NCBI RefSeq assembly: GCF_028596025.1
Contig: NZ_CP117167.1
Span: 5,456,001-5,520,000 of the forward strand
Direction: 5' to 3'
Source of the DNA: Mucilaginibacter jinjuensis
GTDB lineage: Bacteria; Bacteroidota; Bacteroidia; Sphingobacteriales; Sphingobacteriaceae
DNA length: 64,000 bases
Below are positions 46,591-57,800 of this stretch, piece after piece; positions within the stretch are counted from its first letter, which is position 1, and each line of letters opens with the position of its first letter. A program made the position numbers and the translations under genes. Below the pieces are notes generated by a model. It ran no database searches. It was not told the DNA's origin and was given only the letters and a program-made list of their open reading frames with translations.

Positions 46591-49500
46591 TTAAGCATTA
46601 ATAGGTTCTTCGGTTAAAATTTCGTCCTCGGGCATCAGCGCAGGCGATGTGTAAGTGGTTTTATCCTGTACCCAGGCAAACACCAGCGGTAAAATAAACA
46701 GGGCTGCCAATGTTGAGGCAAACAGGCCGCCAATTACAGCGCGACCAAGCGGAGCCGATTGTTCGCCGGCCTCGCCCATACCCGATGCCATTGGGATCAT
46801 CCCGGCAATCATGGCCAAACTGGTCATTAAAATTGGCCTTAAACGGATGGATGCACTGGTTACCGCGGCACGGGTGGCATTACGGTAATCCAATCGCAGG
46901 TTTTCTGCATTGGTAACAATCAGGATGGCATTGGCTACCGATACCCCGGTGGACATGATCATCCCCATGTACGATTGCAGATTAAGCGTTGACCCCGTAA
47001 TCAACAATGCCGTGAGCGAACCCAAAATTACAGCAGGCACAGTTGATAATACCGTTAACGAAACTTTAAACGATTGATAATTGGCAGCCAGCAATAAAAA
47101 GATCACCAATACGGCAAAGCCTAAACCATTCTGCAAGCTGGTTAAAGTATCCGTCAACAAGCCCGACATTCCTCCTATTGTGGCAATCAATCCTTTAGGT
47201 GGTGTGCCTACGGCTGCCACTGCTTTTTGCACATCTGATGTTGCCTGTGCCAAATCCATTTTATAAATATTGGCGCTTACTGTTAGGTAGCGCCGTGGGC
47301 CGTCGCGGTCATATTCTCCCGGTACGTATACGGTTTTAAATTCGGCAACATCGCCCAGTACCGGGCTACTCTGGCCTTTTACCAGCGGGATCTCTTTCAG
47401 CTGATCCATACTGTTCATCGAATACTCGGGCACCTGTACTTGTACCTGGTAGGTATATGCGCCTTTTTCATCGAGCCACAAATTCTTCTCTGTAAAACGG
47501 CTTGAGATTGTACTTGCCGCAACCGTACGGGCAATATCCTTCATATTTAAACCCAGCTGTGCAGTCTTCAATCTATCAACAGTAATTGAAATTACCGGGA
47601 ACCTTAGTGGCTGCTCAATCTGCACATCGCGCAGGTATTTGATGTTTTTCAGCCGGGCCATTACCTTATTGGCGTAACCTTCAATCTGCACCATATCTTT
47701 ACCGGCAACCTGCACCTCAATTGGGGTTGATGCACCCTGGCTCATGATTTTCTCGGTCATGTCAATCGGCTCAAAGGTGATCTGCATTTCGGGCAGGGCG
47801 TAATGAATGTTTTTGCGCAGGGCATCCTTTAGCTCATCCATATTAACATGGTAACTTTCATCAAGGTTTACCTGTAAAATGGCTTCGTGCGTACCTGTGT
47901 TAAAGATGTAAAGGTTACTGCTACCGTAACTGCTTGGAATTAGCCCGATATAGCCGGAGGTAATCTCCACATGGTTATTCACCGTTTTATTGATGATGGC
48001 CAGCACCTGTTTAAACTTATCTTCGGTACGTTCAAGTCGTGTACCCTGCGGCTCTTTCATACGGATCTGAAACTGGCCATTATTGATCTTCGGCATCATA
48101 TCTTTACCGATAAAAACAAAGCATAACCCAGCCAGCACAATTACGGCTACAAGGTAAACCGGCACGATAACCTTTTTATTCGGCATCCATTTTTTCAGGA
48201 TGTTCATGAAGCGGAGTTTTACTTTTTCGAAGAAATCATTTTGCTCGGGCTCTTCATTTTCGTGTTGTAAATGATTGTGAACCTGCGTTTCTTCCGGGTT
48301 ATCTAACGATTCGCCTGCATGCGCATGAACGTGGCGGTGATGATAGTTTTGGTAACGCTCTGCCTTAATTAACCAGTTACTTAAAATAGGCACTACCGTT
48401 TGCGCCAAAATGTAAGACACGATCATGGTTAACCCGATGGACATCGATAGCGGCAAGAACATCGCTTTCGGTACACCACTCATCATAAACGATGGCGCAA
48501 ATACAGCGAGGATACAAAGCAAAATAAGCAGCAGCGGGAACGAAATCTCCTCACAGGCATCATAAATTGCTTTCCGTTTCGATTTACCCATCTCGAGGTG
48601 TTGGTGGATATTTTCAATCGTAACCGTTGCCTGATCCACAAGGATACCGATAGCCAATGCCAGTCCGCTTAGGGTCATGATGTTGATGGTTTGGCCGAAT
48701 AAACTGAGCAGCAACACCCCTATTAAAATAGAAACCGGGATAGTAATTACCACAATTAAACTGCTTCGCCAGTCGCGCAGAAAGAGGAGTACCATTAAGC
48801 CGGTAAGCAAGGCACCCAGTCCACCTTCGGTCATTAGACTTTTTACTGCGTTTACCACGAATACCGATTGATCGAACTCGTAAGATAGTTTCACATCATC
48901 GGGCAGCAGCGATTGCATTTCGGGCAGTTTCTGTTTCAAACTTTGCACCACCGACCAGGTAGAAGCATCGGCCGTTTTAACTACGGGAATGTACACCGAA
49001 CGTTTGCCGTTAATCAAAGCATAATCAACTGTAATATCGGCGGCATCCGCAACACGGGCAAAATCTTTAACAAAAATGGGCACACCATTTTGCGTTTTAA
49101 CCGGGATACTGCCAAAGTTATCGGAGCTCTTGATCAACGAGTTCATGGTGGTTAGGTACATGGTATTATCCAACCTTAAATTGCCCGAAGGCGCCATTAC
49201 GTTAAATTTCGACAAGGCATCAACCACCTCATCGGCTGTTAGGTTATAGCTACGTAATTTATCAGGATCAACATTAATGGTGATCGACCTTGCATTAGCA
49301 CCAAACGGTGGCGGGGCAGATAAACCCGGAATGGTTGAAAACATCGGCCTGATACGGGTTGCGGCCAGGTCATAAATATCTTTCAAACTTTTGGTTGGGC
49401 TCGAAAATACCAGCTGACCAACCGGCAGCGAAGAAGCATCGAACCTGATTACCTGCGGCGGCAATGCACCCTGTGGGAAAAAGCTTGTTGCCCTGTTTAC

Positions 49501-49833
49501 CTGCAAAGCTACCTGCGCCGAAGCTTCGGCCATGTTGGTGCTTTCGTAAAAGGACAGCTTAATAAGTGTTAAGCCCTGGATATTTTTACTGGTGATACTT
49601 TTTACCCCGTTGATGTACAAAAACTGGTTTTGCAAGCCGGTAGAAAAGAAGCCCTCCATTTGCTGGGCCGACATACCACCGTACGACTCGATGACATAGA
49701 TAGTGGGCAGGTTTAACTGCGGAAATATATCTATCGGTATTTTTATTGCACTAAGCACTGCAAATATCAAAAGGCTCATGGTGATAACCATCGTAGTTAT
49801 CGGCCTTTTTAATGCAGACGTGACCATTGACAT
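46591..49833 (-). CDS. RND efflux inner-membrane pump (HAE1/AcrB-like) with His-rich loop
   Basis: This 1080-residue pump has twelve transmembrane helices and two large periplasmic loops. Conserved features are RPITTMVITMSLLIFA at the N-terminus, GLALAIGILVDQATVTIENI in TM4 with the proton-relay Asp, and MSTGVSVANAILIVTNAENLR. An unusual cytoplasmic segment at about residues 494-531 is rich in His, Glu and Asn (NYHHRHVHAHAGES, HNHLQHENEEPEQN), which suggests metal binding. Substrate unknown. It lies 7 bp after the tolC gene stop. Confidence 0.95.
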   Translation of the reverse strand: MSMVTSALKRPITTMVITMSLLIFAVLSAIKIPIDIFPQLNLPTIYVIESYGGMSAQQMEGFFSTGLQNQFLYINGVKSITSKNIQGLTLIKLSFYESTNMAEASAQVALQVNRATSFFPQGALPPQVIRFDASSLPVGQLVFSSPTKSLKDIYDLAATRIRPMFSTIPGLSAPPPFGANARSITINVDPDKLRSYNLTADEVVDALSKFNVMAPSGNLRLDNTMYLTTMNSLIKSSDNFGSIPVKTQNGVPIFVKDFARVADAADITVDYALINGKRSVYIPVVKTADASTWSVVQSLKQKLPEMQSLLPDDVKLSYEFDQSVFVVNAVKSLMTEGGLGALLTGLMVLLFLRDWRSSLIVVITIPVSILIGVLLLSLFGQTINIMTLSGLALAIGILVDQATVTIENIHQHLEMGKSKRKAIYDACEEISFPLLLILLCILAVFAPSFMMSGVPKAMFLPLSMSIGLTMIVSYILAQTVVPILSNWLIKAERYQNYHHRHVHAHAGESLDNPEETQVHNHLQHENEEPEQNDFFEKVKLRFMNILKKWMPNKKVIVPVYLVAVIVLAGLCFVFIGKDMMPKINNGQFQIRMKEPQGTRLERTEDKFKQVLAIINKTVNNHVEITSGYIGLIPSSYGSSNLYIFNTGTHEAILQVNLDESYHVNMDELKDALRKNIHYALPEMQITFEPIDMTEKIMSQGASTPIEVQVAGKDMVQIEGYANKVMARLKNIKYLRDVQIEQPLRFPVISITVDRLKTAQLGLNMKDIARTVAASTISSRFTEKNLWLDEKGAYTYQVQVQVPEYSMNSMDQLKEIPLVKGQSSPVLGDVAEFKTVYVPGEYDRDGPRRYLTVSANIYKMDLAQATSDVQKAVAAVGTPPKGLIATIGGMSGLLTDTLTSLQNGLGFAVLVIFLLLAANYQSFKVSLTVLSTVPAVILGSLTALLITGSTLNLQSYMGMIMSTGVSVANAILIVTNAENLRLDYRNATRAAVTSASIRLRPILMTSLAMIAGMIPMASGMGEAGEQSAPLGRAVIGGLFASTLAALFILPLVFAWVQDKTTYTSPALMPEDEILTEEPINA

Positions 49834-49840
49834 AATTATT

Positions 49841-51226
49841 CTATTTTAAGGTGTTCAATAAAGCGGTTACCTGGTTCTCTGTAATGGCCTTTTGGAAAAG
49901 CGCATTAACGTAAGCATAGCGCGCCTGTGCATAATCAGTTTCGGCACGGTAAAGGATGCTGAGAGCCGCATTTAATTCGATAATATCAGTTAAGCCGCTG
50001 CGATAAAGTGAAAGCTTTTGGCGATACCCGGCATTAGCCGCCTTTAACTGGTTCGGTATTTCCTGCAAACGTTGTTGTGCGGTGGTCAGCTCCACCGAAG
50101 CCTGGTTGGCACTAATGGCAAGCATTTGCTTTTGCTCATCCAGTTTCTTTTGAGCGTAATCAGTCTCCGTTTTTTGGGTGCGAAGTTTGAGTTGTTTACG
50201 CCGCAGGTCGAACAGGTTGTAAGAGATACCTACGCCTACAAGGTAGTTCCCCCGCTGAAAATCGAAACCACTGCCTACGCTGTTGAAATTATCGTTAGCA
50301 TCAACGCTCGAACCCCTGCCCCAGGCAGCGGCCTCTAACAAAATCTTGGGGTTGTATTGCTTACGCACCATATCCTCCCGCTGTAAACTGTTCTGGTAAA
50401 CAGAGCGATAATAATTAATAAGCGGATGGTTAACGGTATCGGCAACAGCTGATGGCGCATTCTGGCTGATAAGGTTAGTCTCGGCCGAAGTATCCGGTAT
50501 AATGGTAGCATAAGGCAAGCCACTTATGGCCGATAGTTGTAATTGAACCTGCTTTAACTGGTTATTTAATTCGATATAATTTAAGCGCGCTTTAGAGAGC
50601 TCGGCTTCTGCAATACTGGTATCTACACCAGGCCTTACGCCGCTTTTAGCCAGTGAGCGGATAGAGCGGTTGATTTCTTCGTTACGCTTAATGTTACGCT
50701 GCTGTATAGCTAGGTAATCCTGCAAACGGGTTAGCTGTAAATAGCTGCCGATAGTATAAGCCTGCAATTGATATTTGGATTGCGCAAACTGGTTTTGCTC
50801 AACCTTAATATCAGAACTGGCTACCTTGTTTTGGGCGCCATAAGAGCCAAAATTGTAAACCTCCCAATCTAAAGCGGCAATACCTAAGTTAGCGCCTGTA
50901 GCTGTGGCATTGCTTTCGGTACGTACACCGCGCGAATTTGACGGGATAATGCCGAAACCAAAATACGGGCCGGCAACGTTGTTATTGGTACCTATATCGG
51001 CCTGGTAATTTAGCCTGAGGTTGGGCAACCAGTTACTTTTAGTTTCTGTGGCTTGCGCCCGCTTTATTAATATGGCTGCCGAATCTGTAATTAAGGTTGG
51101 CGCTTTTTGCTCAACCTGATTGAGCAGTTGCTTTAATGAAATAGCTGGAGGTATTTGCTGGGCCTGCGCATGTATTATTATAAATAAACATACCGCAACG
51201 CCCACGACTTTTTTAAAGCCTGACAT
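49841..51226 (-). CDS. TolC-family outer membrane efflux protein
   Basis: This 461-residue precursor has a signal peptide (VVGVAVCLFIIIHAQAQQ). It shows the duplicated helical-barrel repeats of outer membrane efflux channels (ATETKSNWLPNLRLNYQADIG, GVRPGVDTSIAEAELSKARLNYIELNNQL, YRSGLTDIIELNAALSILYRAETDYAQARY). First gene of the efflux operon; no regulator is adjacent, so its inducer cannot be guessed. Confidence 0.93.
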   Translation of the reverse strand: MSGFKKVVGVAVCLFIIIHAQAQQIPPAISLKQLLNQVEQKAPTLITDSAAILIKRAQATETKSNWLPNLRLNYQADIGTNNNVAGPYFGFGIIPSNSRGVRTESNATATGANLGIAALDWEVYNFGSYGAQNKVASSDIKVEQNQFAQSKYQLQAYTIGSYLQLTRLQDYLAIQQRNIKRNEEINRSIRSLAKSGVRPGVDTSIAEAELSKARLNYIELNNQLKQVQLQLSAISGLPYATIIPDTSAETNLISQNAPSAVADTVNHPLINYYRSVYQNSLQREDMVRKQYNPKILLEAAAWGRGSSVDANDNFNSVGSGFDFQRGNYLVGVGISYNLFDLRRKQLKLRTQKTETDYAQKKLDEQKQMLAISANQASVELTTAQQRLQEIPNQLKAANAGYRQKLSLYRSGLTDIIELNAALSILYRAETDYAQARYAYVNALFQKAITENQVTALLNTLK

Positions 51227-52546: not shown

Positions 52547-53446
52547 TTACCTGTTTTGTTTACGAAATGCTGATGGCGACATACCTACCTGCTTTTTGAA
52601 GAATTTACCAAAATTGGCAGGGTCTGAAAAATTGAGCTGCCAGGCAATCTCGGCTACTTCAAAATCGGTGTATTGAATGAGCGATCTGGCTTCGGCGGCC
52701 AAACGTTCGGCAATAAATGAAAGCGCATTTTTGCCCGAAACCTGTTTAACAGTTTGGGAGAGATAATTGGCAGTAACCGAAAGCATATCTGCATACTCTT
52801 GCACAGTATGTTTGTTGATATAATGATTATCGATCAACTGAATAAATTTGCGTAACAATATTTGCTGCGTTGAAACCGTGGGAGTATCCTTTTTCCTTGC
52901 TAACCAAAAATCTTCCAAATAATAGAGCAGGCCAAGCAACTTTGCCCTTGCTTCTATATGCTGCCCTTTAGCCGACCTTTCATAAGCGCGAAACACCGTT
53001 TCGAAATGTGGCGCCAGTTGTTTAAAGGTAGCATGATCAAACTTAAACAGGTTGGTATGCAATATATCAAACAGCGGAAATTGCTGGTGAAAGTCGGGCT
53101 TGAAGAATAAGAAACATTCGGGCTTAAAATAAATCACATACCCTTCGAGGGCATTATTATGCGCAAAGCTATACACCAGGTTTGGCGAATGAAAAACAAG
53201 GTAAGAATCCGGATCATGAACGGTTTGGGCACCATAGTTAACCTCTATCTTCCCTGAATTTATCAGCAGGGCAAAAAAGTAAAATGAACGTTTAAAAGGC
53301 GGCCTGTATACTGCCCGGTTTTGCTCGAGAGGCTTTAATCGCAAACAATAAAAATCGGGATCTGTAGTTTGTCCCGGCCAAGGGATCGAGGCCAAAAAAT
53401 CATTAATTTCTGTATAATAAGGCAGCGCATTTTTTATTGTCCCCAT
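52547..53446 (-). CDS. AraC-family transcriptional regulator
   Basis: This 299-residue regulator has an N-terminal cupin-like sensing domain (about 25-130) and a C-terminal double HTH (TVQEYADMLSVTANYLSQTVKQVSGKNALSFIAERLAAEARSLIQY, then FEVAEIAWQLNFSDPANFGKFFKKQVGMSPSAFRKQ). It is divergent from the GbsR-led lipid operon, so it might regulate it, but the operon already has its own regulator and operator copies. Confidence 0.92.
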   Translation of the reverse strand: MGTIKNALPYYTEINDFLASIPWPGQTTDPDFYCLRLKPLEQNRAVYRPPFKRSFYFFALLINSGKIEVNYGAQTVHDPDSYLVFHSPNLVYSFAHNNALEGYVIYFKPECFLFFKPDFHQQFPLFDILHTNLFKFDHATFKQLAPHFETVFRAYERSAKGQHIEARAKLLGLLYYLEDFWLARKKDTPTVSTQQILLRKFIQLIDNHYINKHTVQEYADMLSVTANYLSQTVKQVSGKNALSFIAERLAAEARSLIQYTDFEVAEIAWQLNFSDPANFGKFFKKQVGMSPSAFRKQNR

Positions 53447-53508: not shown

Positions 53509-53552
53509 AACTTTCAATAAATTTTGAAAATTCAATATTATATATACTTTTG
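53509..53552 (+). promoter_or_regulatory. GbsR operator copy 1 and leaderless-type promoter
   Basis: The promoter is TTTG (53523-53526), an 18-bp spacer and TACTTTTG (53545-53552), an exact consensus. The ATG is at 53556, so transcription should start at or within a few bases of it. A 33-bp segment (53509-53541) containing the palindrome TTTCA-N8-TGAAA is repeated at 54080-54112 with 28 identities. Confidence 0.75.
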
Positions 53553-53555
53553 TAC

Positions 53556-54062
53556 ATGGAATTACCTGAAGCAAAACAGAAATTTATTGAGGCATGGGGC
53601 AAGTTGGGTTCTGAGTGGGGCATTAACCGCACCATGGCACAGGTACATGCCCTACTACTGGTAACCCCCGAAACGCTAACTACCGAAGATATCATGGAGG
53701 CGCTAAGCATTTCGAGAGGTAACGCCAACATGACCCTGCGCGATTTAATGAGCTGGGGCCTGGTAGAAAAACAACACAAAGCAGGTGAGCGCAAAGAATA
53801 TTTTTATGCTGATAAAAACACCTGGAATATTGCCCGCCAGGTTGCCAAAGAACGCCGCAAAAGAGAATTGGACCCGGTTTTAAAAGTACTGGATGAGCTG
53901 ACGAAAGTTGAGGGCGATAAAAAAGATCCTGCTTATCAAACCTTTCATAAATCGGTAACAGATATTAATAAACTAGCTAAAAACGTTGATAAAACTTTAG
54001 AAACCATGCTCAAGGCTGAGGAAAATTGGTTTTGGGGTTCAATTTTTAAAATCTTCAAGTAA
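53556..54062 (+). CDS. GbsR/MarR-family transcriptional regulator
   Basis: This 168-residue regulator starts at the ATG at 53556; an in-frame TTG two codons earlier is part of the -7 element. The HTH is at about 40-75 (LTTEDIMEALSISRGNANMTLRDLMSWGLVEKQ) and a charged helical tail is at 85-140 (QVAKERRKRELDPVLKVLDEL). GbsR proteins answer small membrane-active or osmotic ligands. Here it heads a run of lipid-related genes and has operator copies before itself and before the first of them. Confidence 0.9.
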   Translation: MELPEAKQKFIEAWGKLGSEWGINRTMAQVHALLLVTPETLTTEDIMEALSISRGNANMTLRDLMSWGLVEKQHKAGERKEYFYADKNTWNIARQVAKERRKRELDPVLKVLDELTKVEGDKKDPAYQTFHKSVTDINKLAKNVDKTLETMLKAEENWFWGSIFKIFK

Positions 54063-54079
54063 GATTTTTTTTGCACTTA

Positions 54080-54112
54080 AACTTTCATTAATTACTGAAA
54101 TTTCAATATTAT
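54080..54112 (+). promoter_or_regulatory. GbsR operator copy 2
   Basis: This 33-bp repeat of the segment at 53509-53541 (28/33 identical, arms TTTCA and TGAAA kept) ends in the ATG of the DCC gene at 54111, so the regulator would sit right on the start site of the structural genes. Confidence 0.7.
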
Positions 54113-54929
54113 GAATACTTTAAAAAATCACCTGATCCTTTTCGATGCAGAATGCCCCATGTGCAGCCTGTATACTAAAGCATTTGTAAGTACCGGCCTG
54201 CTGGAGCAAGATGGCAGGGCTGCTTACCAGGAAACCGCTGTTGAAACCTGCCCCCTGGTTGACAGGCAACGCGCCGTTAATGAAATTGCCCTGGTAAACC
54301 AGGAAACCGGCGAAGTTACTTACGGTGTTAAAAGTTTATTTAAAGTATTTTCGGTAGCCATACCTGCACTTAAACCGCTGTTTGAGTTTGCGCCCTTTGT
54401 ATGGCTAATGAGTAAAGTTTATGCATTTATTTCTTATAACAGAAGGGTAATTATCCCGGCTGCAACTGAGCAATACGCCTATCAGCCCACGTTTAAACTG
54501 CACTATCGCGTAGCCTATTTATTATTTACATGGGCAATTACCGCTTATATTTTAACTGCTTATGTGCATTTGATGTATGGCTTGCTGCCGGTGGGAACCA
54601 GCTATCGCGAGTATTTGATCTGCGGTGGGCAGATCTTCTTCCAGGGAATAATAATCAGCCTGTTTGCCAGCGATAAAAAGTGGGCCTACCTGGGTAATAT
54701 GATGACTATTTCTTTCGCAGGTGCACTGTTGTTATTGCCGGGCTTACTCTTAGCCACCTGGTTTAGCCTCCCTCCTGTTTTTTATGTGTGCTACTTTATG
54801 GCTATGGCCGGTTTAATGTTTCTGGAACACATCCGCCGCACCAAACTACTCAGTCTGGGCTGGACACTTACTGTTAGCTGGGCTTGCTATCGCCTGTTGG
54901 TTTTACTGTTCATCTTTTTAGCCAAATAA
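54111..54929 (+). CDS. DCC (DUF393) thiol-disulfide oxidoreductase with membrane domain
   Basis: This 272-residue protein begins with a short DCC domain (HLILFDAECPMCSLYTKAFV; Asp12, Cys15 and Cys18), the family's redox-like CxxC. Four to five membrane helices follow from about residue 135 (LHYRVAYLLFTWAITAYILT and onwards). The fusion of a soluble DCC domain to a membrane module is uncommon in my experience. It is the first structural gene of the GbsR operon. Confidence 0.85.
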   Translation: MNTLKNHLILFDAECPMCSLYTKAFVSTGLLEQDGRAAYQETAVETCPLVDRQRAVNEIALVNQETGEVTYGVKSLFKVFSVAIPALKPLFEFAPFVWLMSKVYAFISYNRRVIIPAATEQYAYQPTFKLHYRVAYLLFTWAITAYILTAYVHLMYGLLPVGTSYREYLICGGQIFFQGIIISLFASDKKWAYLGNMMTISFAGALLLLPGLLLATWFSLPPVFYVCYFMAMAGLMFLEHIRRTKLLSLGWTLTVSWACYRLLVLLFIFLAK

Positions 54930-54985
54930 CATGCCTTATAAAAAGAAGAAGTAGCAGCTATCAACAATATTTTGAGCTAAACGCT

Positions 54986-55420
54986 ATGGAGATACTCCGC
55001 ACACATTTACAACAATTAATTTACCTGGCAGGCTTGGCCCAGATTGCTTTGGTAACAGGAAGCCTGGCCATCCCCCGAATACTAAACTGGCGTGCAGAGC
55101 TGGCTAAGGTTCAGCCCTTAATTAAACAAATGTTTTGGACCTATGCCGGATATATCGTGGTTATCAATTTATGCTTCGGGCTGCTTTCTGTGTTTGCTAC
55201 CGGGGAATTAAGCAACGGCTCAAAGCTTGCTATACTGGTTGATGCATTTATTGCTGTATATTGGATTTCGAGAGTATTAATTCAGTTTTTATACTTCGAC
55301 AGAACTAACTTCCCTGCGGGGATCTGGAATAAAATTGGAGAAACGGTATTAGTTACGCTCTTTGTCTTTCTGAGTATTGTTTACAGCCTGGCATTTTATT
55401 TTAACTTTCATAACACCTAA
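54986..55420 (+). CDS. Membrane protein of unknown function (144 aa)
   Basis: The start is the Met at 54986 (MEILRTHLQQLIYLAGLAQI); the longer frame overlaps the preceding gene. It has four hydrophobic helices with short loops. It resembles no family I can name. Its place between the DCC and MBOAT genes on the same strand, with gaps of 56 and 8 bp, makes membership in the lipid operon very likely. Confidence 0.8.
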   Translation: MEILRTHLQQLIYLAGLAQIALVTGSLAIPRILNWRAELAKVQPLIKQMFWTYAGYIVVINLCFGLLSVFATGELSNGSKLAILVDAFIAVYWISRVLIQFLYFDRTNFPAGIWNKIGETVLVTLFVFLSIVYSLAFYFNFHNT

Positions 55421-55428
55421 ACCTCATC

Positions 55429-56400
55429 ATGTATATCTTATTATTTCATCTGTTTTACTTTGCCTGCATCAACCTGCTGGTTCTGTTGCTGGGCTATCTC
55501 ATCATCAAAAAAAGGCTGATTGCCGCAAGCTGGTTTATGTTTGTATTCGCTATTCTTACGGTGCACCTCCTATTTATGCACGATCATCCCATCATCAGGA
55601 TGCTGGCCATTATAGCAACAACCTTTACCGCCATGAAAGTAATTGCCGTAGCCGAAAGTTATAAGCATCAAAAACTAAACCTTAGTTTCAAGCAATGGCT
55701 TGCCTTTGCAGGCGGTTGGGCCGGTATGCGGGCACAACCTTTCGAAACTTTAGGGCAAGCCGCCTTGCCCAATGCTTGGCCACTGGTTTGGCAAGGGGTT
55801 AGCCGGGTTATTGCAGGGGCATTATTTATACTTTTAGCACACCTGCTACTCCATTTTTCTCATAGCACAGCAACCATAATATTGGTAAGCGCCATTTTAT
55901 TAATAGGCTTAAGCCTGATACTACACTTCGGCATGCTTAGCATTAGTGCGGGGATGTGGCGGTTTAGTGGAGCTAATACCTACCTGCTTTTCAGGCAACC
56001 GGCCAAAGCAATAAGCCTTACCGAATTTTGGAGCAAACGCTGGAACATCGCCTTTAGCGAAATGACCTCGGTTGCCATATTTCGTCCCTTAAAAGCCAAA
56101 ACAGGCAGCCCGGTAGCATTACTGCTGGCCTTTGCTTTCTCAGGTTTACTGCATGAGCTGGCATTAAGCGTACCTGTAAACAGCGGCTACGGCCTGCCTA
56201 TGCTTTACTTTATAATTCAGGGAGCTTTGGTATTATTTGAGAAGTTTTTAACCATCAGAAAAAATACGTTTTTACAGCATAAAGTTGTTGCCAAAATATG
56301 GCTCTTCTTTTGGCTGGTTGTACCGGCTCCTTTGCTGTTTCACCCGCAGTTTATTAAACAAATTGTTTGGCCATTGGCCGGCTTGCATTATAATTTTTAA
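55429..56400 (+). CDS. MBOAT/wax-synthase-like membrane acyltransferase
   Basis: This 323-residue protein has about eight membrane helices. The motif LTEFWSKRWNIAFSEM (about residues 198-212) and the downstream FSGLLHELAL with His242 match the plant-type wax synthase (MBOAT_2) pattern FW..RWN...H. Such enzymes acylate fatty alcohols, sterols or glycerol derivatives. The acceptor cannot be predicted. It is next to a desaturase, which supports a membrane or storage lipid product. Confidence 0.85.
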   Translation: MYILLFHLFYFACINLLVLLLGYLIIKKRLIAASWFMFVFAILTVHLLFMHDHPIIRMLAIIATTFTAMKVIAVAESYKHQKLNLSFKQWLAFAGGWAGMRAQPFETLGQAALPNAWPLVWQGVSRVIAGALFILLAHLLLHFSHSTATIILVSAILLIGLSLILHFGMLSISAGMWRFSGANTYLLFRQPAKAISLTEFWSKRWNIAFSEMTSVAIFRPLKAKTGSPVALLLAFAFSGLLHELALSVPVNSGYGLPMLYFIIQGALVLFEKFLTIRKNTFLQHKVVAKIWLFFWLVVPAPLLFHPQFIKQIVWPLAGLHYNF

Positions 56401-56434
56401 CAGAACCCAATATCACCAACCTTAAAACCACCAC

Positions 56435-57220
56435 ATGATGACACATGCCGAAATTGTAAAGAAAGTTGAATGGAAGGACCTTAAAAACTTAAGCGCCCGC
56501 GAAATGCTGATCGAGAATAACCTTACCATCCCCTGGGTGTTGCTCTCATGGCTGCTGGCCTATAATGGTTATTATATTTTAGCGTTACCGTTCTCTGCCT
56601 TTTTCTTTCTTACCGGTTTAAGGCAGGTACATAACGGCTTTCACAACTCATTAGGCACCAACAAGTTTCTTACCTGGTTTACACTTTACAGTAACAGTAT
56701 ATTGATGATAGTATCTATCCATGCGGTTAAATTTAATCACATCAGGCATCACAAATACTGTTTAACCGAAGATGATTATGAAGGAAAATCTGCCCGAATG
56801 AGCTGGTATGGTGCAATTTTATACGGGCCGGTACACATGTTTTTAATCCATAAAATCACCCTGCAGCTTGGCGATAAAAAATATGTAGGGAACCTGGTTG
56901 CCGAGCTCATCTCGATCAGTGTGTTTTTATTTCTCGTTTTTTACTTCGACGTTCATTTTTTAATCTATCATATTATAGTGATGATCTTCGGCGAATTTTT
57001 GATGGCCTTTTTTGCCGTGTGGACCGTGCACCATGACACGCATGAAAGCCCCGAACTGGCACGGACCCAAAGAAGCAAGTGGAAAAATAAGATCACGTTT
57101 AGTATGTTTTATCACCTGGAACATCACCTGTTTCCCGGAGTACCCACCATTAAACTGCCCGAACTGGCTAAAAGAATTGACCAGGCATTGCCTGATATAC
57201 AGAAGAAACAGACATTCTAG
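56435..57220 (+). CDS. Membrane fatty acid desaturase/hydroxylase family protein
   Basis: This 261-residue protein has about four to five membrane helices. The histidine boxes are HNGFH (66-70), HIRHH (102-106), VHHDTHE and YHLEHHLFPGVP, the di-iron ligands of the desaturase/hydroxylase superfamily. It could insert a double bond in an acyl chain or hydroxylate a lipid or carotenoid. It is the last gene of the GbsR operon and 34 bp after the MBOAT gene. Confidence 0.9.
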   Translation: MMTHAEIVKKVEWKDLKNLSAREMLIENNLTIPWVLLSWLLAYNGYYILALPFSAFFFLTGLRQVHNGFHNSLGTNKFLTWFTLYSNSILMIVSIHAVKFNHIRHHKYCLTEDDYEGKSARMSWYGAILYGPVHMFLIHKITLQLGDKKYVGNLVAELISISVFLFLVFYFDVHFLIYHIIVMIFGEFLMAFFAVWTVHHDTHESPELARTQRSKWKNKITFSMFYHLEHHLFPGVPTIKLPELAKRIDQALPDIQKKQTF

Positions 57221-57300
57221 ATAAGATGGGCTTGATTCATTCAGACAAATAATCCCGGACTTCTTCTAAGGTTGACAGGTTTAATTCTAACATAAAATAT

Positions 57301-57342
57301 ACAGATATCAGATTATCAATACATTAATAATCTGATATCTGT
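57301..57342. repeat. AT-rich perfect palindrome after the lipid operon
   Basis: The 16-bp perfect arms ACAGATATCAGATTAT (57301-57316) and ATAATCTGATATCTGT (57327-57342) with a 10-nt loop lie between two convergent genes. No T-run follows, but it can serve as a terminator in both directions. Confidence 0.65.
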
Positions 57343-57371
57343 ATGCGATTTCGGCATTAAAAGCTTACCTG

Positions 57372-57800
57372 TTAATAATTGGGGTCAAATTCAACGATCC
57401 ATTCAATACCATATTTGTCCCTAAACATTCCGGCATACGTATCCCATGGGCTGTCGCCTATCGGGCCTTCGATATCTCCGCCTGCTGATAATCCGTTAAA
57501 AATCTGGTCTGCTTCTTCCCGGCTTTCTGCACTAACTGATATTTTAGACCTGTTTTCGTTTTCATTCACCCGTCCCATAAATTCAGGAACATCGTTGGCT
57601 CTTAATTCATTGTGCTTCCCGATAGGCAAAACAATGGTCATTATTTTATTTGCTTCGCTTTCCGGTATCGAAAATTCAGGACCTGACAGGTCTTTGAAAC
57701 GAATGATCTTAGTAAACTCGCCGCCAAAAACCGATTTGTAAAAAGTGAATGCTTCTTCGGCATTACCGTTGAAGTTGATCCAGGGATTAATTGTTCTCAT
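57372..57800 (-). CDS. VOC (glyoxalase-fold) PhnB-like protein
   Basis: This 142-residue protein has two beta-alpha-beta-beta-beta units of the VOC fold: INPWINFNGNAEEAFTFYKSVFGGEFTKI and EEADQIFNGLSAGGDIEGPIGDSPWDTYAGMFRDKYGIEWIVEF. The family is often named 3-demethylubiquinone methyltransferase-like without activity evidence. It is placed before the SRPBCC-ArsR pair on the same strand; soil bacteria often cluster such small proteins. Confidence 0.9.
   Translation of the reverse strand: MRTINPWINFNGNAEEAFTFYKSVFGGEFTKIIRFKDLSGPEFSIPESEANKIMTIVLPIGKHNELRANDVPEFMGRVNENENRSKISVSAESREEADQIFNGLSAGGDIEGPIGDSPWDTYAGMFRDKYGIEWIVEFDPNY

Follow-up and report, generated by a model that had tools for sequence, protein, structure and literature searches.

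A putative GbsR operator and a DGAT1-like acyltransferase with a small membrane partner in Mucilaginibacter jinjuensis and other bacteria

In the genome of Mucilaginibacter jinjuensis (6.16 Mb, one contig), five genes in a row encode a regulator of the GbsR/MarR family (GbsR), a DCC1-like thiol-disulfide protein (DCC), a four-helix membrane protein (TM4), an acyltransferase of the MBOAT family and a di-iron membrane desaturase. Do these genes form a system and, if so, what holds them together and what would they make? The row lies in a window of 64,000 nucleotides (NZ_CP117167.1, positions 5,456,001 to 5,520,000 of the forward strand), to which the coordinates below refer; our handles for genomes and loci begin with G and L, and those for some protein families with K. 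The original prediction, made from the letters of the window, was of five genes in one direction. All five frames are present on the + strand, with intergenic gaps of 48, 56, 8 and 34 bases (open reading frame (ORF) listing of the window). We propose, with a probability of about 0.6, that a modular, GbsR-controlled regulon for the O-acylation of membrane lipids is represented in the window by one example, and that this strain has lost the TIGR01777 gene of the set. The palindrome TTTCA-N8-TGAAA, which occurs at 53512 and 54083 (5′ of gbsR and of dcc), is the candidate operator.

53512..53529, + strand: operator 1, TTTCAATAAATTTTGAAA, starting 44 bp 5′ of gbsR; the same site is found at the gbsR of relatives
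53545..53552, + strand: TACTTTTG, which fits TAnnTTTG, 15 bases past operator 1; relocated pairs have the same spacing
53556..54062, + strand: GbsR/MarR-family regulator, 168 amino acids (ORF, Pfam, search for structural relatives)
54083..54100, + strand: operator 2, TTTCATTAATTACTGAAA, starting 28 bp 5′ of dcc, with no TAnnTTTG box after it
54111..54929, + strand: DCC1-like thiol-disulfide protein, 272 amino acids, with CPMC at residues 15-18 and a hydrophobic C-terminal part (Pfam, orthologues)
54931..54980, + strand: deletion scar of a TIGR01777 (SDR) gene (comparison with G087, locus L118, and G009, locus L036)
54986..55420, + strand: TM4, four-helix membrane protein of 144 amino acids, proposed partner of the MBOAT (profile, model, adjacency)
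55429..56400, + strand: MBOAT acyltransferase resembling wax synthases and DGAT1, 323 amino acids, with His242 (Pfam, alignment, structure model)
56435..57220, + strand: di-iron membrane desaturase/hydroxylase, 261 amino acids, with HNGFH, HIRHH and HLEHH (Pfam, sequence motifs)
52547..53446, - strand: AraC-family regulator, a divergent neighbor whose membership in the system is not shown (ORF, Pfam)

The gene row and its putative operator

The order GbsR-DCC-TIGR01777-TM4-MBOAT recurs in G009 (same genus), in Paradesertivirga, in two Dyadobacter, in Pedobacter and in Hufsiella. In Solitalea, two extra genes stand between TIGR01777 and TM4, and, in three further Bacteroidota loci, a K34 pair stands between GbsR and DCC. 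Since the order recurs in several genera, the gene row exceeds chance, as judged by comparison of sequences; the neighborhood search in other Bacteroidota that the original prediction had suggested thus finds the row again.

Both PF01978 and PF12802 score over their cut-offs in the regulator, and its nearest solved structure is MJ223 (1ku9, E 4e-17, residues 3-151), a similarity that places it in the GbsR family. The characterized members of this family govern betaine synthesis and uptake, according to the available part of a survey (PMC6207618), and the kinship could be taken to mean an osmostress system, in which GbsR would respond to betaine or choline and the enzymes of the membrane would adapt its lipids to salt. 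The model of CudC, the choline regulator, gives only 44.1 bits on the window GbsR vs. a cut-off of 218, which would place it outside the osmostress branch. No osmolyte (betaine, Opu) or cyd/cydAB gene is found in the window operon by ORF and Pfam scan, and the same part of the survey reports no aromatic inducer cage beyond the osmostress group (PMC6207618). We consider a role in osmostress improbable.

The palindrome is present 5′ of gbsR in all 24 other Bacteroidota GbsR frames examined (15/15 and 9/9 in two sets), a count that leaves out the DCC loci for which the gene picker named no GbsR (L122, L123, L125 and L137). Its distance to gbsR is 44-47 bp in 23 of the 24 and 26 bp in one with a longer called frame. 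The refined operator pattern matches the own genome at two places, both at this locus, and its reversed control at one.

Stronger evidence for a link between the regulator and the enzymes comes from TM4-MBOAT pairs that have moved. Among 27 Mucilaginibacter loci, the pair of L153 sits inside a GbsR operon; in the other 26, the pair stands apart, with no GbsR found, and shared neighbors sort these loci into 11 neighborhood groups. An exact palindrome lies within 200 bp of TM4 in every one of the 26 (at 174 bp in L168, owing to a late picked start). Near other frames of the same loci, it is seen in 6 of 223 cases, each being the same site viewed from a divergent neighbor (Fisher p 7e-30), and these 26 palindromes are the only copies in 327,305 bases of those loci. 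The sequence TAnnTTTG, which we take to be the Bacteroidota -7 element, follows 15-17 bases past the palindrome in 25/26 relocated pairs vs. 108 of 5,200 random stretches (2%); TACTTTTG before the window gbsR fits it with the same spacing. Ten pairs inside GbsR operons have no palindrome within 300 bp. Other putative parts of the regulon found behind operators are GbsR-K34, GbsR-SRPBCC-K7 and DCC-TIGR01777 with two sites.

These relocated pairs bear on another account, in which the row is a local accident: a two-gene MBOAT cassette landed in an operon of GbsR and DCC, and nothing ties the two in function. The many places at which the Mucilaginibacter pair occurs would fit such a cassette, as would the near relative G087, which has GbsR-DCC-TIGR01777 and neither the pair nor the desaturase at the matching site. 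On the other hand, the relocated pairs all keep the putative operator, the full order recurs in several genera, and a DCC-MBOAT fusion lies behind GbsR in another phylum (L212, below). An accident of this kind seems to us very improbable. The original prediction had named dissimilar neighbors of homologues as a point that would tell against it. Taken literally, the Mucilaginibacter pairs do have such neighbors, but the shared operator keeps the regulatory link; since the relocated pairs share it, the link appears to be a regulatory one that survives relocation. GbsR control of the gene set, as the original prediction had it, is well supported in silico, and strongly so by a predicted operator that is conserved and travels with the genes on relocation.

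Some observations on the sites and their neighbors are given here for completeness. In Parachryseolinea (L196:4911-6010), a single operator is present between a divergent K35 gene and the TM4-MBOAT pair. One string, TTTCATTTGTTTCTGAAA, occurs unchanged in at least 10 genomes among the matches listed in the genus scan (e.g., G067:C1:4529108), away from known members, perhaps inside a conserved gene. By Pfam, K7 is PF17648 and its label DUF4166 is wrong. DoxX-like and other neighbor labels are transfers, by BLAST or phmmer, from few Pfam-scanned seeds.

The TM4-MBOAT pair and its predicted chemistry

Of the own genome and its relatives (149 in all), 24 have the MBOAT orthologue; these are also the genomes with a highly similar TM4, and in each of them the two genes are adjacent. 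Distant relatives of TM4 are found in eleven more. A collection of species genomes, scanned with the MBOAT alignment and two conserved peptide patterns, yields 100 relatives, and the best 80 loci were kept, so that the sample is not random; their titles name Bacteroidota, Planctomycetes, Acidobacteria, Verrucomicrobia, Cohnella and others. With a six-frame TM4 profile, TM4 is directly beside the MBOAT in 80/80 loci: upstream in 58 (counting L180, in which the two frames overlap), downstream in 20 and on both sides in 2. A pairing kept despite changed gene order argues for a working partnership, which, by comparison of sequences, we regard as well supported. A fusion of MBOAT and TM4 in the long frames of L216 and L222 was rejected: only TM4 is matched and the rest is a shadow frame. 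Two loci have incomplete MBOAT genes. In L057 (G063:C1:4224501-4244500), only a short piece is left (residues 279-319), perhaps from a cassette in decay, and TM4 is not matched; in L182 (a Sporocytophaga metagenome-assembled genome, MAG), the MBOAT is split into two frames of 203 and 126 amino acids, by assembly error or decay.

The MBOAT scores 39.7 bits with MBOAT_2 (PF13813, cut-off 25). The closest fold to its model (predicted local distance difference test, pLDDT, 96.7) is DGAT1 (Z 21.8, root-mean-square deviation 3.8, 299 residues), with ACAT and DltB slightly lower; DGAT1 is also the best match by sequence. His242, invariant in 50 MBOAT sequences, aligns with His447 of plant DGAT1, a residue mutated in one deposited structure. 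Judged by the fold of the model, the enzyme most likely O-acylates a lipid alcohol of the membrane. The original prediction of a modified neutral or membrane lipid agrees with the DGAT1-like fold and the kept catalytic His, and the lipid product is itself only predicted.

Bacterial MBOATs with dedicated partner proteins exist for polymers, as in DltB-DltX/DltC and AlgI-AlgJ/X. Would the window MBOAT instead act on a protein or a cell-wall polymer, like DltB, AlgI or HHAT, with TM4 presenting the substrate? The DltB structures, at Z 19.0-19.1, are less than 3 below DGAT1. Against such a substrate stand the assignment to MBOAT_2 by Pfam, the first place of DGAT1 in both sequence and fold, and the lack of any SGNH-type or carrier protein among the labeled recurrent neighbors (most neighbors were not scanned). 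We find this alternative unlikely, and lipid O-acylation is kept below.

TM4 is modeled with confidence as a bundle of four helices (pLDDT 94.7), and Gly16 and Arg96 are invariant in 57 sequences. No Pfam or NCBIfam family matches it up to E 0.1. The best VIA-align match (CD81, Z 10.0) is too low to mean much for helical bundles. A relation between K34 and TM4 was rejected (profile comparison probability 0.3%).

Lost, occasional and distant members

Comparison with G087 and G009 identifies the short stretch between DCC and TM4. Positions 54931-54945 are the first five codons of TIGR01777 (MPYKK), and 54954-54980 are its last eight codons with the stop (AAINNILS-stop). By this comparison of sequences, the window operon lost a TIGR01777 gene that once stood between DCC and TM4. 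In the own genome, one TIGR01777 alone scores over the family cut-off (5151136-5152005). It shares only 27-30% identity with the operon type, as a distant paralogue would, and has a photolyase-like neighbor; it was rejected as a relocated copy. This paralogue (L238:8121-9032) adjoins a photolyase-like frame, and another such frame is present about 5 kb off (named by eye); the paralogue and these frames perhaps form a light-related cluster.

The desaturase scores 63.7 bits with FA_desaturase (PF00487, cut-off 29.7), and it has the three histidine boxes, HNGFH, HIRHH and HLEHH. Among the loci of the 24 relatives and the 80 wider loci, it stands beside the MBOAT in the window only. Close relatives (45-84% identity) are found in 4 other genomes of the 149; L130 and L131 are in GbsR operons, as is L306 from the phylum sample, and, for L128 (a 5.6-kb contig) and L129, no GbsR is labeled in the fetched stretch. 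By these neighborhoods, the desaturase is an occasional member. The parts named by the original prediction are of the families it gave, and DCC, TM4 and MBOAT are linked across phyla; its five-gene set is a real row from which one gene has been deleted and to which the desaturase belongs only at times.

The DCC of the window gives 23.1 bits with PF04134 (E 1.8e-4), below the cut-off of 27.8, and two scanned relatives give 58.3 (L219) and 49.9 bits (L212). Its N-terminal CxxC is present. In L212, a Phycisphaeraceae MAG, the order is GbsR, a fusion of 429 amino acids with DCC1-like (9e-13) and MBOAT_2 (2.7e-8) parts, TM4, DUF2071 and a second TM4. Within its 9.5 kb, only two sites have one mismatch or none: an exact one where the fusion frame begins (its start codon is uncertain) and one with a single mismatch, 68 bp 5′ of gbsR; base composition predicts 0.004 exact sites. 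The acidobacterial L217 has GbsR-DCC-TM4-MBOAT-TM4, with two mismatches in the best site before gbsR; a phage-integrase-type gene just behind this row (L217:7048-7662) hints at mobility. In 4 acidobacterial loci, the MBOAT is directly preceded by a DCC-bearing protein; one of these, L219, was scanned, and there DCC is fused to a metallo-beta-lactamase domain. In a Cohnella locus, a weak DCC match (6e-4) precedes the pair. Among 53 non-Mucilaginibacter loci, seed matches are found for DCC in 13, for GbsR in 11 and for TIGR01777 in 10; three more DCC labels (L194, L197 and L205) come from a full-length seed.

TM4 also occurs with other partners. From 395 sampled genomes of the phylum, 13 loci with TM4 and no MBOAT were fetched. 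In 11, TM4 lies behind DUF2071 and a methyltransferase, 10 of these with a DoxX-like gene, and, in two, it is part of a GbsR operon: GbsR-TM4-K34-K34-desaturase-TIGR01777-SRPBCC-K35 (L306) and GbsR-TM4-TIGR01777 (L308). The fourteenth, G146, has DUF2071-methyltransferase-TM4 (L146). Rows of a DoxX-like gene (not seen in a few), DUF2071, a membrane methyltransferase and TM4, with no adjoining MBOAT, are seen in Bacteroidota at L138-L149, L304, L305, L307 and L309-L316.

Around the window row, a perfect 20-pair inverted repeat (57299-57344), terminator-like on the - strand, lies between the desaturase and a convergent - strand gene (57372-57800). A few genes upstream, at 46591-51226, there are - strand RND-type transporter and TolC-like genes, judged from the sequence by eye.

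Proposed mechanism and relation to known systems

Several observations weigh against a GbsR-controlled regulon for lipid O-acylation. The bare palindrome occurs at 20 places in the own genome vs. 21 for the reversed control, and was rejected as a genome-wide finder of the regulon; because it does no better than the control, only the refined pattern or placement at a promoter carries weight. Even around refined sites, 6 of the 20 regions fetched (L294 and L296-L300) have no known member genes. No TAnnTTTG box follows operator 2. For pairs outside both Mucilaginibacter and GbsR operons, only L196 has an exact site in front (L202, L203, L216 and L222 not covered), and the gbsR sites found outside Bacteroidota, in L212 and L217, have mismatches. 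Near the DUF2071-methyltransferase-TM4 clusters, the operator is found in 0/12 and in one of 11 further (L307, at the start of the cluster). The MBOAT is rare, both among relatives (24/149) and in the phylum sample, where the own genome and one weak match in a frame of 520 amino acids are the only cases (the best 5 candidates at most being scored per genome). TM4 is present in 15/395 genomes of that sample, 14 of them without this MBOAT; TM4 is thus not solely a partner of the MBOAT. No convincing fold relative of TM4 is found, the best Foldseek matches (sigma-2 receptor, Fc-epsilon receptor beta chain) being at E 0.2, and the acyl acceptor of the MBOAT is a guess.

In the regulon that we propose, a GbsR-family protein would recognize TTTCA-N8-TGAAA before its own gene and before effector genes. 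GbsR is probably a repressor, since the palindrome keeps a constant spacing to the -7 box and covers part of the stretch where the -33 region is expected, and a hydrophobic or membrane signal may release it. The effectors would be DCC, TIGR01777 and SRPBCC proteins, the small membrane proteins K34 and TM4, the MBOAT and at times the desaturase, with DUF2071 and the methyltransferase possibly added in other lineages; they could stand in one operon or scattered, with the operator in front. TM4 may be a membrane subunit dedicated to the MBOAT. In the manner of DGAT1 and wax synthases, the two together would take an acyl chain from a thioester and attach it to a hydroxyl group, that of a lipid or of an isoprenoid alcohol. 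DCC could supply a thiol-redox step, and TIGR01777 and the desaturase might modify the acceptor or the acyl chain. In the window strain, TIGR01777 has been lost and the desaturase gained or kept.

A wider reading is put forward tentatively. Such a membrane-modification system may cross phyla, with a GbsR repressor, enzymes that mix and match, TM4 as shared adaptor (an obligate subunit of the MBOAT, and in other operons the partner of a membrane methyltransferase behind DUF2071) and DCC as a redox gate on the MBOAT. Within this reading, the genes scatter while each keeps its operator, so that the regulon, and not the operon, would be the unit kept by selection.

The original prediction knew no named system with this set, and the literature search likewise gave no published description of it among the titles and opening lines of abstracts; PMC7481793 and PMC8612252 added nothing on it. 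The relocated pairs would be a clean case of an operon that breaks up with its regulation kept, and the comparison brings to light DGAT1-like acyltransferases of bacteria that are constantly accompanied by a small membrane protein lacking a family model.

The nearest likenesses are with systems in which one or another part is shared. In chloroplasts, the plastoglobule core proteome, as given in the available part of a recent article (PMC12587418), includes AT1G52590, a putative DCC thiol-disulfide oxidoreductase; this is an analogy only, with no homologous operon. As in DltB-DltX/DltC and AlgI-AlgJ/X, mentioned above, a bacterial MBOAT would have a dedicated partner; unlike there, this partner is a four-helix family with no Pfam model, and the labeled neighbors include neither a carrier nor an SGNH protein. 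With DGAT1, sterol O-acyltransferase and the plant wax synthases, the window MBOAT has in common the fold, the FWxKRWN region and the catalytic His, whereas it is shorter (323 amino acids), bacterial, beside TM4 in every locus examined and under putative GbsR control. The regulator is like GbsR, OpuAR and CydE in family, with MJ223 as its best solved relative, and differs from them, as they are described in the part of the survey at hand, in its putative targets, which are not osmolyte or cytochrome bd genes (PMC6207618). For the Bacteroidetes GbsR group, the same part of the survey notes that "no consistent picture emerges" from neighborhoods (PMC6207618). The operator and gene set described here are a candidate answer to that gap: they name a concrete candidate operator, the genes it would control and the enzyme pair at the core, which makes the question of what Bacteroidetes GbsR proteins control directly testable.

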